Below, piece after piece: positions 2,987-46,208 of a stretch of 64,000 nucleotides of DNA; positions within the stretch are counted from its first letter, which is position 1, and each line of letters begins with the position of its first letter. A model generated the notes under the pieces. That model saw nothing but the letters and a program-made list of their open reading frames with translations. It was not told the origin of the DNA and did no database searches. Made by a program: the position numbers and the translations under genes. Origin of the DNA: Alloascoidea africana (taxonomy: Eukaryota; Ascomycota; Alloascoideomycetes; Alloascoideales; Alloascoideaceae); NCBI GenBank assembly GCA_030581615.1, contig JAKTTT010000054.1, positions 62,001 to 126,000 of the forward strand, given 5' to 3'.

Positions 2987-3027
2987 CAGGTAAGGTATTT
3001 GGGTTACCCACTCCATACCTTCACCTG
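2987..3027. repeat. Hairpin at the presumed 3' end of the LINE
   Basis: CAGGTAAGGTAT (2987-2998) pairs with ATACCTTCACCTG (3015-3027) with one bulged base and a 16-nt loop. It lies at the downstream end of the LINE coding remnant on the minus strand, where many LINEs carry a 3' stem-loop used by their reverse transcriptase. That role is inferred. Confidence 0.6.
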
Positions 3028-4781
3028 CAGAAATTTACAAGCGTGGGTAGGTTCTCCTGGTTGAGCATTTCTGGTGTGGACTGGATAAGATCCAACCCGC
3101 TTTCTTTCCTCTCTTCTGCCCACAAAGGGCATTCCATGACCTCGTGGTCATAGCTGGGAGCCTGGTGCCCCCACGAGCACGCTCCGTCCTCTTGGAAGAG
3201 AAACTTCTTGAGTTTGCAGTCGATTATGCTCGTGCCACTCAACAACTGAGTCAAGGCCGAGATAATGGGTTTCGGTTCGGTGAAATACTTCTGTAAGGTG
3301 ACGTCGCTTTTTGCCTGCGGGATCTGGATGGTGTTCTGGACGTAAGTCGGGTTTAGCGCCTTGGATTATAACTCTTTTTCCCATAGTTCTTTGGCGTATC
3401 TTTGGCATGCCTTTTTCCTCGTGTGTTTTATTTGTTTAACTGATGGGTCTTCATCTATGTTTAGTTCTGCTTTCGTGAGGTCTACTAGTGCTTGTTTGAT
3501 CCCTCTCCGGCTGGTTCTTGCGAGCATCTCTTCAAGATGGCACTCTCGAGGTTTCTGGTTTAGTTCCTGTTGTATCGCTATAGTTGCTGGATTTCCTGGG
3601 GAAATGCTCAGGATGAATCGTCCCTTTTTGATCAAATTGACTTCGATTAACTTTATGTGGGAAGGAAGGCAGCCTCTTTCGATTGTTAAAAGTGTTGTGA
3701 ATGTTGGTTTAAGGAGACCTAACACTCTTCTTAGGCATTCATTCTGGAGGATGTCTATCTTTTTGTCACTTAGGACGTATCTTTTGGTGTTGTACACCTC
3801 TGATCCATAAAACAGTTGTGGTTCTACGCACGCTTGGTACATTTGCAACGTGGCTTTGGCGTTCAATCCTTTGCTTACTTTGGTAATATTCTTCGGTCTA
3901 GTTATTGTGCCCTTTACTTTTCCTGTTATTTGAGTGAAGTGGTTTTGGAAAGATAGTTTCTTATCGAGCCACAAGGCTAATATTTTGACTGCGTCGTCTT
4001 CTTGTTTGATTGTACCATTCGGCAGGGTTAATGTTATTGTGTCCGACTTTTTCTTTTCATGCATGGTTATCATTTGGCATTTTTTGCCGTAGTCAAAATG
4101 TTTCTGGCCCTATTTTCACAAACTTCTAATTCTACGGTGAGTCTTTGTGTTCGGTAGGTCGGAGGGCCTGATACCCTTAGAGTTATGTCGTCTACAAACC
4201 CCCAAATTTCCCGGTCTTCCTAAAGATCCCCGCTATATATAAAGAAGAGGAGTGGCGATAGTGGTGAACCCTGAGGGACACCGTTGTTTGGTTCGAAAGT
4301 TTTGTCGCAGATCTGATTGTTGATCTTGAAAGTTACCTTGCGTTTATAGAGGAAGCTAGCGCACCAATTGACTATGTGAGACTCCACCTTGAGCTCCAGT
4401 AGTTTGTTGCACAATTTGCGGTGTACTATGTTGTTGAACGCTCCTACCACGTCAATCATGACGAAACTTGTTTCATTTTTGTTGATTCCGCTTGTTAAGC
4501 AATACAGTGCGTCGCTGGTGCTGAATCCTTTCCTTCCGCCGAATTGGTCAGATCAGGGCCTGGTAATCTAGAGTTTTGATTATTTTTGTGATGTCTTCTT
4601 CTTGAAATGTTTCTTCTGCCTCTGCTAGCGTTTCTGTTCGGAACTGGTCGGTTGGGCACCTGGGAGAAAACTCCTGGGCACTCCTCTCCGCGAGATCTTC
4701 TAGGTCTCCTGCCATTGTAACTCTACGAGGAGGTTCTGTTAGTCGTGGAGCCTCCCTCAGCTCCTTTGCCATCAGTCTCAA
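2987..4781 (-). mobile_element. Decayed LINE (Tad/I/Jockey-type reverse transcriptase)
   Basis: The minus strand reads in order: a linker ending EEDITKIIKTLD (about 4600), RT palm motif DVVGAFNNIVH (about 4450), GVPQGSPLSPLLF (about 4270), catalytic FVDDI (about 4190), the thumb with ILALWLDKKLSF (about 3970), and a C-terminal zinc-knuckle block with Cys, His and the CPLW motif (about 3120-3180). The QGSPLSPLLF form is typical of the Tad/I/Jockey group and not of L1-like Zorro elements. The endonuclease and ORF1 are absent, so the copy is 5'-truncated. The RT fingers also seem shortened, and the frame changes several times (near 3210, 3365, 4080, 4220 and 4550), so it is dead. No target-site duplication was identified. 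Confidence 0.85.
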
Positions 4782-25255: not shown

Positions 25256-26499
25256 TCAAACCTGAACATCAAAATCCGCCAACTTTTCGCCTTCCCAGTT
25301 TTCCCACGTATCGGGCTGGTAGTAATCGTCATCCTTCTTGCGGCGCCGGCGAGACCACGAGGCATCGTCTGTGCCTAAACTAGAACTGGAAATAGAGCTG
25401 GGACTATCAGACCGGCGGCCTAAACTGGCATAGTCAGACCTATCTGGCTTATGGAACAGTCTATCAAAGAGACTACGGCCTTTGCACTCGTCACCAAACT
25501 GGGGTTCAAGCTCATGCACGGGCCGAGTTTGATCTTCGTGATCTGGAGGCCAGGGCAGTCCAAATCCAATTTCGGGCTCCAGCCATTCGTTCTTGCGAAA
25601 CCTGAGTCCGTCACCTTGGGGTGCACCCCATGGTAAGAGCCACGTGTAGAAGGGCCCTAGGGCATCGGTTACGTTGTCCCAGGCAGAGATGTCATAGGGA
25701 AACAGTAGGTCGTCCATCGACTCTATTCGCTGAGGTTCTGTCCCAGAATCTGCGAAATATCTGTCCAGCGCAGGCTGGATCTTGCGTTGAAGAACCCCGT
25801 ATCTGAGCTGGGCAGCGATTCTGTCTTCTTCCCAGGACTCAATCTGCGTTTTCCCTCCCACTATGTTTGAGATGCATCGTAGAAAAAGCATAAAGACCGA
25901 GAGCAGGACGAAAAGGTCGAACGGGATGAGAAGGATTGAAAACACGATTTCGGACTTGGGGATGAGATACGCAGGCAGGTCCGCATCCAGATAGAAATGG
26001 TAGCACCGGCGTGCGAGACAGACGAGAACGTATCCCGTAGTGATTTCGACCCAGACCAGAAACCTGATAAAGTGAGGCAGGTTTGCAAATCCTACTGCGT
26101 TTGCAGTCCAGGGACAATAGTGGTCCATACGAAGAACACATCGCCCCATCATTCTACTATGATGAGCCCGTTCAGGTTTGTAAGCATGGCAATATTTGCA
26201 CCATCGTCGCCATTCTCCTGGTCCCGGCTCAAATCCAGCAGGAACGTAGCCCGGGTTTTTCAAAATGGCACAAAAATAGGAGACCCAAATCATGGATAGG
26301 CTAAACTCAAACCAGACCTGCTGGCCCGTACTAAGGAACCGGCGGAACACGAACCAATGGGCACAGTATCCTATGAACGAGATGAGAAACGAGGGGATCT
26401 ATCCAAAAGTAGCAATAGTTAGCAAAAATAGTAAGCGTTTGCTCAAACCCCAAGTTTTCTTACAATTATACCCAGGATGGGCCATTTTAAATCGATCAT
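25256..26499 (-). CDS. PFA4: Palmitoyltransferase Pfa4 with degenerate second zinc site
   Basis: ER-membrane protein S-acyltransferase; in yeast it modifies chitin synthase Chs3. Exons (minus): 26499-26464 and 26398-25256, giving 392 residues. The 36-nt first exon encodes MIDLKWPILGII, matching the Pfa4 N-terminus, and the 65-nt intron has GTAAGA and GCTAAC. Two N-terminal and two later membrane segments flank the Cys-rich domain. C79, C82, H92 and C99 (first zinc site) are present, as are catalytic D104, H105 and C107 in DHYC. The usual second-site ligands are replaced: S93, M96, Y106 and A113. QIESWEEDR, the Pfa4 C-terminal PWPPD and the final DFDVQV confirm orthology. Zinc-site numbering is inferred from alignment to the known DHHC20 fold. 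Confidence 0.9.
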
Positions 26500-39598: not shown

Positions 39599-41218
39599 TT
39601 ATTGTTGAGTCGTCGTGTCTTCGGACTCCAATCTTGTTGCAGTTGTCTGGGTAATCATCTGCCAATCTGATTTTATCAAGAAATAGAATTCACCAACGGT
39701 AACGGATAAGATTCCTGCTGAGATTCCTAACCATAGACCACGAACCCCTAGATCAGCTTTAAAAGCGAGCCAAAACGCAATTGGCAATCCCACAGCATAG
39801 TAAGCCACGAGGTTAAGAATCCCGCCGATCTTCTGGCGGCCCTGGCCACGAAGAATGCCCGCCATGACGATGTTGGGGCAGTCGAAGGACTGGTTAAGAG
39901 CGGTGATGGGGAGCACGGAGATGAGGATGAAGGTGACCTGGGGGTCTGTGGTGAAGGCAGCAGCGATCTGCCTTTTCAGCAGAAACACGGTCGAGGCGAG
40001 CAGCAGCGAGAGCAGCAGCGAGAGTCGCAAGGCTGCTCGACAAGTCGCGATGGCGCGTTTCGGGCTCGCGCGGCCCAGATACTGGGCGATTCGCGTGGAG
40101 GCTGCGATGCTGGAGGCCAGGGGCACCTGGAAGATGAGGCCCGAGAGGCTTGAGATGACGGCCTGGGCTGCCAGGGCAGAGGTTCCGAAGCGGGCGGCCG
40201 CGATCGTGAGCACCTCGAAGGCCAGGTTCTCTGCCTCGACCATCACGATGCCCGGGACCGCGAGCTCGAGCAGCGGGCCCCAGCGGCGGAGGGCCGCGGC
40301 GACGTCCAGGCCCGTCCAGCACTGGTGGCCGTCCACGAACACGGTGTAGGCCAGCAGCAGCGCGGCCATCAGCCAGTGGACCGCGACGGTGCTGACGGCC
40401 GCGCCCGTGTAGCCCACGGCGAAGCGAGGGCTCCACACGAGCAGGTAGGTCAGGGCGACGTTGATCGGCGCGGCCACGGCGAGCACCCAGGTCCCGGCGG
40501 CGAAGATGCCCTGGGCCTGGAGAAAGCGCTTGGCCGTGTCGAACGCGATGAAGCCCGGGGCCGCGAAGGAGAGAATCCGCAGGTAGCGAACCGTCAGGTC
40601 CACGAGCTGGGGGTCCTCCAGCCCAGGGTCCTCCAGGACCACGAGCGAGAGCAGCGGGCCCGCGTTCCACCAGAGCACGGCCAGCGGAACGAACAGAGCC
40701 AGCAGCATCGCGAAGCCGCGCTGGACGAAAACACAGACCAGTCGCCGGTCGCCGGCCCCGAAGGCTTGCGGGCACACCGTGTCGAGACAGGTGCCCATGC
40801 CCATGAACAGCGACGAGCCCGTGAGGTTGAACGTCAGCGAGGCCAGCGACACGGCCCCCACGTACTGCTCGCCCAGCCGGCTCACGGAGAAGATGGCCGT
40901 GAAGGATAGGGAGTACTGGAGCAAGAAGCTCGCGATCAGCGGCACCGCGGTTTTGGAAAGGAATACAAACTCGTTGACCTCGTTGACCTCGAGCGACAGC
41001 TCGGGGTCGAGAGCCTCGGGGTCGTCCATGCTGGAGCTCCAGCTGGTCTGTTCGTTCTCGTTCTCATTCTCATCACTGGAGGTGGACCCAATTGTCTTGG
41101 ACTGGGAGATCGCCTGGAGCAGCCGTGTGCTCTCGCCTGGATCCACACCCTCGTCCATGGACTTCATCGCCGTGTTCACCTTCGCCTTCATCTTAGTCCG
41201 TCTGTCAGAGAACAGCAT
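39599..41218 (-). CDS. MATE-family multidrug/metabolite efflux transporter (Erc1-like)
   Basis: 539-residue integral membrane protein of the MATE superfamily, which exports cationic compounds by H+ or Na+ antiport. After an acidic, Ser/Glu-rich cytosolic N-terminus (about 1-85) come 12 predicted membrane segments. Typical MATE signatures are present: the first-repeat block GMGTCLDTVCPQAFGAG (about 139-155), and in the second half the block SSLSGLIFQVPLASSIAASTRIAQYLG (about 350-376; quoted here only to locate it, key residues PLASS and RIAQ). Yeast relatives are Erc1 and Ydr338c. The start is the first ATG; a second Met is ten codons in. The middle of the gene is extremely GC-rich while both ends are AT-rich. 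Confidence 0.9.
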   Translation of the reverse strand: MLFSDRRTKMKAKVNTAMKSMDEGVDPGESTRLLQAISQSKTIGSTSSDENENENEQTSWSSSMDDPEALDPELSLEVNEVNEFVFLSKTAVPLIASFLLQYSLSFTAIFSVSRLGEQYVGAVSLASLTFNLTGSSLFMGMGTCLDTVCPQAFGAGDRRLVCVFVQRGFAMLLALFVPLAVLWWNAGPLLSLVVLEDPGLEDPQLVDLTVRYLRILSFAAPGFIAFDTAKRFLQAQGIFAAGTWVLAVAAPINVALTYLLVWSPRFAVGYTGAAVSTVAVHWLMAALLLAYTVFVDGHQCWTGLDVAAALRRWGPLLELAVPGIVMVEAENLAFEVLTIAAARFGTSALAAQAVISSLSGLIFQVPLASSIAASTRIAQYLGRASPKRAIATCRAALRLSLLLSLLLASTVFLLKRQIAAAFTTDPQVTFILISVLPITALNQSFDCPNIVMAGILRGQGRQKIGGILNLVAYYAVGLPIAFWLAFKADLGVRGLWLGISAGILSVTVGEFYFLIKSDWQMITQTTATRLESEDTTTQQ

Positions 41219-44864: not shown

Positions 44865-46208
44865 TCATAACCTGTCCGGGTTTGCAAGGCCCTGTTTCTC
44901 CGTTCCTCGTCTGTCTCCACGGGCAAAGACCCGTTGGTAAACCTCCTCGTTGACGGGAAACCAAGTGCCATCCTCGTTTTTAGCGGCACGCCGGGGGATG
45001 GGGAGAAGCCACTCGGCCCAGGTCTTACCCATGACCAGCTCCCAGTTCTGGCGGTATCCAAGGTCAAACACATTCCCCACAGACTTTGACGTTGTGGGTT
45101 GTGAGAACTGGGAGCTGTTCTGTAGTATTTCCGCCTTGTACCTGACGTCCTCCATGCTTTCCAGCGTAGTCAGGTTTTGTAGCAATAGCCATGTTGAATG
45201 CGATGCGTAGAGTAAAAAACCTAAGAAGATTCCAATCGAGAGGACAAAATTGCATAAGATCGCAATAAAGATGACCAACTTTTCTTTATGCTTTCCACTT
45301 TTGACAAAGCCTATAATAGTCACAAGGAATGAGATGGAGCATAGGAGAGCGTATACCACCACATACCATAGAAACTGGATGAAGAACTTTTTGTTGTGGA
45401 AGCCTATACAATTTCCGAACAAGTGATTGTGATGATCCATTTGTAGCACACAGTGGCCACAGCTCGAACAGTGATGTGTTCTGTCGGGCTTCCAGCACTT
45501 GCACTCTGTACAGTAGCGAAATCGGCCATTATCCTTTGAAGTGATTCCAGTTTTTATTTGTCTTGGGACTGGTGGTAGAACCCAGGTTTCGTGGCCATCA
45601 TTGTTACCAGTATCGTTCTCCTCATACTCACGCTCAAATATGCCAGCAAAGCCTTCTAGATCTAGAGGACTTCCCGGATCCTGGCATACAGTTAGATAGA
45701 AGATGATGCTCAGTAGTGCAAATCCTATTCCTGCGGGTGCTAGAATGGAGCCTGTCAAGCCATCAAAATGTCCAACACAGACATGGAAAATGAGCATGGT
45801 GCATGTGTTAAAGTTTATCATTATGCAATTAAACCTTAAAATCAGCAAGCGCATAAACCTCTTTGGTCTTCGAGATATCTTGGACTCTTTGTGTTCGCGT
45901 GCTTTCACTCTTATTCGTACCAGTCTACTACGGCCACCGCTGGGGGCCAAAGCCCATGCGTTTCGCTGGAGGGCCTGATGAAGGGACCCTAGCTGGCTTG
46001 TGTTGGAGTCTCCAGACTCGATCTCGGAATGTGTCACAAGAGGAGCGGTGGTGGCTGTTATGGTCTGCTGGGGGGACGAACGCAGAGCTACTCTGGGATC
46101 CAGGGTGACGTAGCCAGCCCGTAGAAGCTGACTGTGGGCCTGTGCCTCCAGGTCCATATCCATATCCATATCCGTATCTAGACTGGGATTGCTCGTGTGG
46201 GTGGCCAT
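44865..46208 (-). CDS. PFA3-like DHHC-family protein with the catalytic Cys replaced (DHHN)
   Basis: 447 residues from the ATG at 46208. Four membrane segments (about 116-133, 150-172, 285-308, 318-342) flank a complete Cys-rich domain: YCTECKCWKPDRTHHCSSCG (about 232-251), then CVLQMDHH and NHLFGNCIGFHNKKFFIQFL. All cysteines and histidines of both zinc sites are kept, including the late Cys in NC. The catalytic residue is Asn261: the canonical DHHCPW reads DHHNHL. Spacing to the NC motif is unchanged, so this is substitution and not loss of a codon. The best relative is Pfa3 (vacuolar, Vac8 palmitoylation), judged from the KKFFIQFL block and topology. The C-terminal block GYRQNWELVMGKTWAEWLLP (about 381-400) is also typical. 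As read, the protein should not form the acyl-enzyme. Confidence 0.85.
   Translation of the reverse strand: MATHTSNPSLDTDMDMDMDLEAQAHSQLLRAGYVTLDPRVALRSSPQQTITATTAPLVTHSEIESGDSNTSQLGSLHQALQRNAWALAPSGGRSRLVRIRVKAREHKESKISRRPKRFMRLLILRFNCIMINFNTCTMLIFHVCVGHFDGLTGSILAPAGIGFALLSIIFYLTVCQDPGSPLDLEGFAGIFEREYEENDTGNNDGHETWVLPPVPRQIKTGITSKDNGRFRYCTECKCWKPDRTHHCSSCGHCVLQMDHHNHLFGNCIGFHNKKFFIQFLWYVVVYALLCSISFLVTIIGFVKSGKHKEKLVIFIAILCNFVLSIGIFLGFLLYASHSTWLLLQNLTTLESMEDVRYKAEILQNSSQFSQPTTSKSVGNVFDLGYRQNWELVMGKTWAEWLLPIPRRAAKNEDGTWFPVNEEVYQRVFARGDRRGTEKQGLANPDRL

Follow-up and report, generated by a model that had tools for sequence, protein, structure and literature searches.

A Pfa3-like DHHC-family gene of Alloascoidea africana with asparagine at the catalytic cysteine position, probably encoding a non-catalytic relative of the acyltransferases

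The DHHN gene and its altered active site

The window analyzed here is a stretch of 64,000 nucleotides from the fungus Alloascoidea africana (contig JAKTTT010000054.1, positions 62,001 to 126,000, forward strand), and it contains on its minus strand a gene for a DHHC-family protein, which we refer to as the DHHN protein, with asparagine where the family carries its acyl-bearing cysteine. The open reading frame (ORF) 44865-46208 begins with ATG and runs for 447 codons with zero internal stops. The Pfam DHHC domain PF01529 is found in its product with an E-value of 8.1e-30 and 104 bits (cut-off 28.7), and the best relative among solved structures is human DHHC20 (E 2.3e-29), whose alignment is ungapped across the motif. 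Both the family membership and the open 447-codon frame claimed in an earlier sequence-only reading of this DNA are thus confirmed. The one fungal DHHC protein matching among the solved structures was yeast Erf2, with a score (48.6 bits) too modest for an orthologue. At the DNA level, a search for the pattern HC-x2-C-x2-C-x4-DH that allowed any residue at the catalytic position gave a single hit in the window and none in 100 shuffled versions. The features of the gene are as follows.

44865..46208, minus strand: Pfa3-like DHHC-family protein gene with a DHHN active site; 447 aa, intact frame
45672..45680, minus strand: DPG motif, D177-P178-G179, which follows the second hydrophobic segment; seen in the sequence, motif as given in PMC4192757
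45381..45512, minus strand: cysteine-rich domain, residues 233-276, with all eight zinc-ligand positions present
45420..45428, minus strand: altered triplet N261-H262-L263 (AAT CAC TTG) in place of Cys-Pro-Trp, from the sequence and the consensus comparison
45159..45170, minus strand: TTxE motif, T347-T-L-E350, from the sequence and the DHHC20 alignment
44997..45074, minus strand: C-terminal conserved block NVFDLG...NW..VMG..W.EWLLPI, from the DHHC20 alignment

The active-site codons GAT CAT CAC AAT CAC TTG TTC GGA AAT TGT encode D258, H, H, N261, H262, L263, F, G, N and C267, so that the loss of the acyl-carrying cysteine, noted earlier, is real at the level of the codon (AAT, Asn261). We know of no fungal nuclear code in which AAT, CAC or TTG is reassigned. 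For comparison with the family, we used the published consensus Cx2Cx3(R/K)PxRx2HCx2Cx2Cx4DHHCxW(V/I)xNC(I/V)Gx2Nx3F, which has 21 fixed positions (PMC4192757). The DHHN protein satisfies 18 of them, and its departures (positions 261, 263 and 264) are confined to the active-site stretch: Asn261 stands for the acyl-carrying Cys, Leu263 for the Trp two residues past it (DHHCxW), and Phe264 for Val or Ile. Phe at position 264 is usual for Pfa3, so that the real departures are Asn for Cys, Leu for Trp and His for the Pro that is customary there. The Pro position is an "x" in the consensus, so of the three changed residues described previously, two (Cys and Trp) are strong departures and the third is the loss of a usual Pro.

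The remainder of the domain is conserved. All eight zinc-ligand positions are kept by sequence, namely C233, C236, H246 and C253 and C247, C250, H260 and C267, the grouping into two presumed sites following the DHHC20 structure, and D258 and H259, the triad partners of the catalytic Cys, are also kept. In zDHHC20, two zinc ions are each held by three Cys and one His (PMC8059564). Hydropathy analysis with a cut-off of 1.6 yielded five windows, two of them overlapping within the last region, and hence four hydrophobic regions (128-146, 155-173, 283-301 and 311-343), of which the first barely exceeds the cut-off (1.61); the cysteine-rich domain thus lies between the second and third of four predicted membrane segments. 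The C-terminal block presumably contains the PaCCT region. The sequence, the DHHC20 alignment and the hydropathy profile therefore bear out the earlier statement that the zinc ligands, the membrane segments and the C-terminal block are preserved.

To which subfamily does the protein belong? The comparison took in two of yeast's seven DHHC proteins, both as approximate reference sequences: the match with Pfa3 scored 161 bits (36 percent across 269 residues), that with Pfa4 73.9 bits (29 percent across 251 residues). Given such approximate references, the closer resemblance to Pfa3 is a lead rather than a test. Pfa3, the yeast vacuolar protein acyltransferase (PAT) for Vac8, shares the TTxE motif and the C-terminal block with the DHHN protein, whereas it reads DHHC-P-W where the window protein reads DHHN-H-L, and the latter has an N-terminal extension of ~ 110 residues relative to the approximate Pfa3 sequence. 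The only other DHHC match in the window at E < 1 was the Pfa4-like gene described below, so no second Pfa3 was found in the window.

A second DHHC gene and the rest of the window

About 18 kb from the DHHN gene lies a second DHHC gene, absent from the earlier reading.

25256..26499, minus strand: Pfa4-like DHHC gene, predicted exons 26499-26464 and 26398-25256
26399..26463, minus strand: predicted 65-base intron of this gene, from its splice signals (GTAAGA ... TGCTAAC ... TAG)

PF01529 is found in its frame 25259-26350 with an E-value of 1.2e-29, and the protein reads CKYC...KPERAHHSRMMGRC...DHYCPWTANAVGF. Against the approximate references, it scored 275 bits with Pfa4 and 75.1 bits with Pfa3, and on that basis it looks Pfa4-like. 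It meets 16 of the 21 consensus positions, the misses being S65, M68, Y78, T82 and A85 (numbering of ORF 26350-25256). If the DHHC20 grouping is applied, S65, M68, Y78 and A85 are all four ligand positions of zinc site 2, while the four presumed site-1 ligands and the catalytic Cys79 are kept in a motif that reads DHYC. Since a whole zinc site is lost, the changes are best seen as real sequence evolution; Akr1 and Pfa5 lack the same site-2 ligands. Some DHHC enzymes are described as lacking many of the domain cysteines (PMC4192757). Judged from their sequences, two aberrant DHHC genes are situated ~ 18 kb apart in one fungus.

The window holds 26 frames of at least 180 aa, of which nine were profile-scanned, together with one shorter frame and the DHHN protein. 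Neighboring genes with family matches encode Dcp1, Spt20, CTK3, NIPA and an acetyl-CoA hydrolase; together with the splice signals, they would be in keeping with a yeast-like fungus. A MATE-type transporter gene (39599-41218, minus strand) has the highest GC content at third codon positions (0.815) of the 13 genes scored for codon usage, the next value being 0.637, and a 235-aa frame at 3366-4073 (minus strand) resembles, by eye, a reverse transcriptase fragment of a non-long-terminal-repeat retrotransposon.

Origin of the altered codons

According to the genetic code, the change from Cys-Pro-Trp to Asn-His-Leu requires a minimum of four base substitutions within the triplet's nine bases, whichever codons it started from; the same nine bases could also be reached through a one-base insertion and a one-base deletion that offset each other, together with two substitutions. 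One base error can therefore not explain the triplet, as had been argued before. Several other origins were considered and rejected. A frame slip is disfavored, as the neighboring frames, inspected by eye, do not encode Cys-Pro-Trp and both flanks are in frame at the family spacing, although paired compensating indels with two substitutions would still fit. Splicing across the altered codons (offsets 780-788) was assessed by two crude motif searches: donor-like motifs occur at offsets 288, 519, 577, 581, 842 and 1180, while the sole branch-like site, at 513, lies upstream of these codons, so no good intron spans them. Local template copying was likewise rejected, since the nine-base segment has no second copy in the gene on either strand; elsewhere in the window it recurs once, on the minus strand at 568, with no identity in the flanks. 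The sequence also contains a short internal repeat, ATCAC-A-ATCAC.

What the DHHN protein may do

The key question is what a DHHC-family protein without its cysteine could still do. Our favored reading, to which we assign a probability of about 0.48, is that this fungal DHHC protein of the Pfa3 type no longer carries out catalysis through a covalent acyl-enzyme and acts as a non-catalytic presenter or scaffold. Such a protein would fold, sit in the membrane and be unable to form the thioester; its remaining role would be the binding of clients, perhaps together with acyl-coenzyme A (acyl-CoA), and Vac8, a Pfa3 client in S. cerevisiae, exemplifies the candidate client type. It might present or scaffold clients as suggested for Drosophila GABPI, while another transferase would perform the chemistry. 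The confinement of the departures to the active-site stretch supports this reading, as do the intact frame, the family match and the failure of the motif and copy searches to turn up an intron or template behind the change. Replacement of the catalytic Cys by Ala or Ser is described as abolishing the activity of three Arabidopsis PATs, and in yeast pfa3 knock-outs, Vac8 acylation is merely partly reduced (both PMC5364179), which indicates that other PATs can cover Vac8. In the alignment, structure 7khm, titled "hDHHS20 bound to palmitoyl CoA", has Ser at the catalytic Cys position, so DHHC20 does not need this Cys to bind acyl-CoA. Most likely, the DHHN protein forms no acyl-enzyme and, if it acts at all, serves as a non-catalytic membrane protein that binds clients; it is probably a non-catalytic relative that either has been retained in a different role or fell silent recently.

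Several observations weigh against the presenter or scaffold reading. AlphaFold2 models of the two DHHC proteins, both built on three-sequence alignments, reached mean predicted local distance difference test (pLDDT) values of only 48.4 and 47.4 and are too poor to bear on the fold. In a Foldseek search with the DHHN model, DHHC structures occupied the first 11 of 33 rows (10 at E <= 0.001); given template modeling scores (TM-scores) of at most 0.41 and a low-confidence model, we draw nothing from this beyond the family. The motif Trp lines the acyl pocket, and with it the capacity to bind acyl groups may have gone too. In DHHC3, other cysteines of the domain can be autoacylated (PMC5364179), and a protein that lacks this one Cys may therefore still have acyl sites.

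Upkeep of the gene by selection, expressed as "maintained" in the earlier note, is conjectural. No fungal orthologue of the DHHN gene was found in phages, plasmids, viral contigs or prokaryote genomes, although the nature of these collections means that the result says nothing on rarity. In viral contigs, the single-protein search gave 27 pattern matches and the alignment search 18, with zero confirmed relatives in either, and the DHHC motif pattern itself had no match; the single-protein search of phages and plasmids found no relative. In genome contigs, the alignment search confirmed one of 49 matches, a eukaryote-like DHHC domain (3001-3378) with an ordinary motif (21/21) and a stop within the matched stretch, on a contig (L001) filed under a Verrucomicrobiaceae metagenome-assembled genome; it is probably eukaryotic contamination and useless as a sister sequence. 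The in-frame codon score of the DHHN gene (-0.032) exceeds those of the other five frames (-0.173 or less), and among the 13 genes this one ranks last both in frame and on synonymous codon choice alone (-0.023), with 50-codon windows starting at codons 76-151 and 201-326 falling below zero. The Pfa4-like gene has an in-frame score of 0.008. The codon table was trained on 11 of the 13 genes, the DHHN and Pfa4-like genes being the two outside the training set, so this comparison is tilted against both.

Could the gene simply be dead or dying? In that case, a single event or a few substitutions would have destroyed the active site recently, with other PATs covering the clients and the rest of the sequence undecayed, and every consensus position outside the active-site stretch is indeed still intact. 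Of the 4023 possible single substitutions, 164 introduce a stop, so that after ~ 17 random substitutions the frame would still be open in half of such genes, which makes it weak proof of upkeep. The client overlap among yeast PATs (PMC5364179) and the lowest codon scores among the 13 genes point the same way, whereas three adjacent codons have changed by at least four substitutions and yet no stop or frameshift occurs across 447 codons. On balance we regard recent death as doubtful, if worth keeping in view. The earlier note's phrase "enzymatically dead" is likely to apply. Yeast Swf1 and Pfa4 in which Arg replaces this Cys are nevertheless reported to lose activity only in part, perhaps because the client attacks palmitoyl-CoA directly (Gonzalez Montoro 2015, via PMC8107437), and this too speaks against a purely non-catalytic role. 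The DHHN protein could accordingly be a Cys-free S-acyltransferase in which the client thiol attacks palmitoyl-CoA, positioned by the Asp-His pair and the zinc-built pocket; Asp258 and His259 are still there, as is every zinc-ligand position, while the additional loss of Pro and Trp would be needless for an enzyme that merely dispenses with Cys. No natural active Cys-free PAT emerged from word searches of open-access papers, a weak absence, and "DHHN" combined with "palmitoyl" returned, by title, hedgehog proteins alone. We consider direct transfer unlikely.

That the altered motif reflects an error of sequencing or assembly appears very improbable. The window offers no second copy for comparison, and the paired-indel route given above would produce the same nine bases. 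Isolated indels are the commoner sequencing error, whereas here at least four changes fall within nine bases, the frame is kept and no base stands more than twice in a row; moreover, the second DHHC gene diverges in a structurally sensible way, at each of the four presumed ligands of a single zinc site, unlike the product of random error. A broader and rather speculative proposal is that S-acylation has been rewired in this lineage, with a Cys-free Pfa3 that presents clients or transfers directly and a Pfa4 that has shed its second zinc site, as in Akr1 and Pfa5. It is an unlikely scenario; if true, both genes would be natural test cases for the dispensable parts of DHHC proteins.

The interest of the locus depends on which explanation holds. 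A merely recently dead gene would be of small interest, and a Pfa3 that naturally lacks the Cys but keeps everything else would allow the Cys requirement to be tested without an engineered mutant. That requirement is in question because of the Swf1 and Pfa4 variants, which share with the DHHN protein a Cys-free active site and differ in being laboratory mutants with the Cys alone changed, per PMC8107437. Proteins of the DHHN type can be missed in family surveys, one of which is described as discarding domain matches without a DHHC motif (PMC5359973). Natural departures from the motif are also known in Akr1, Akr2, Pfa5 (DHYC) and human ZDHHC13 (DQHC) (PMC8107437, PMC4192757), which the DHYC second gene resembles and the DHHN gene does not: unlike the latter, these proteins retain the catalytic Cys, and PMC4192757 describes them as active, although according to PMC5364179 direct evidence of activity is lacking for Akr2. 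The closest parallel is Drosophila GABPI (DHHS), a natural DHHC-family protein whose catalytic Cys is likewise replaced, albeit in an animal and by Ser rather than Asn. It was judged likely inactive in vivo (PMC4192757) and has been called "non-enzymatic", with a broad set of interactors that "may be indicating" that it presents substrates (PMC9374236); the DHHN protein would add a fungal case beside this fly protein.
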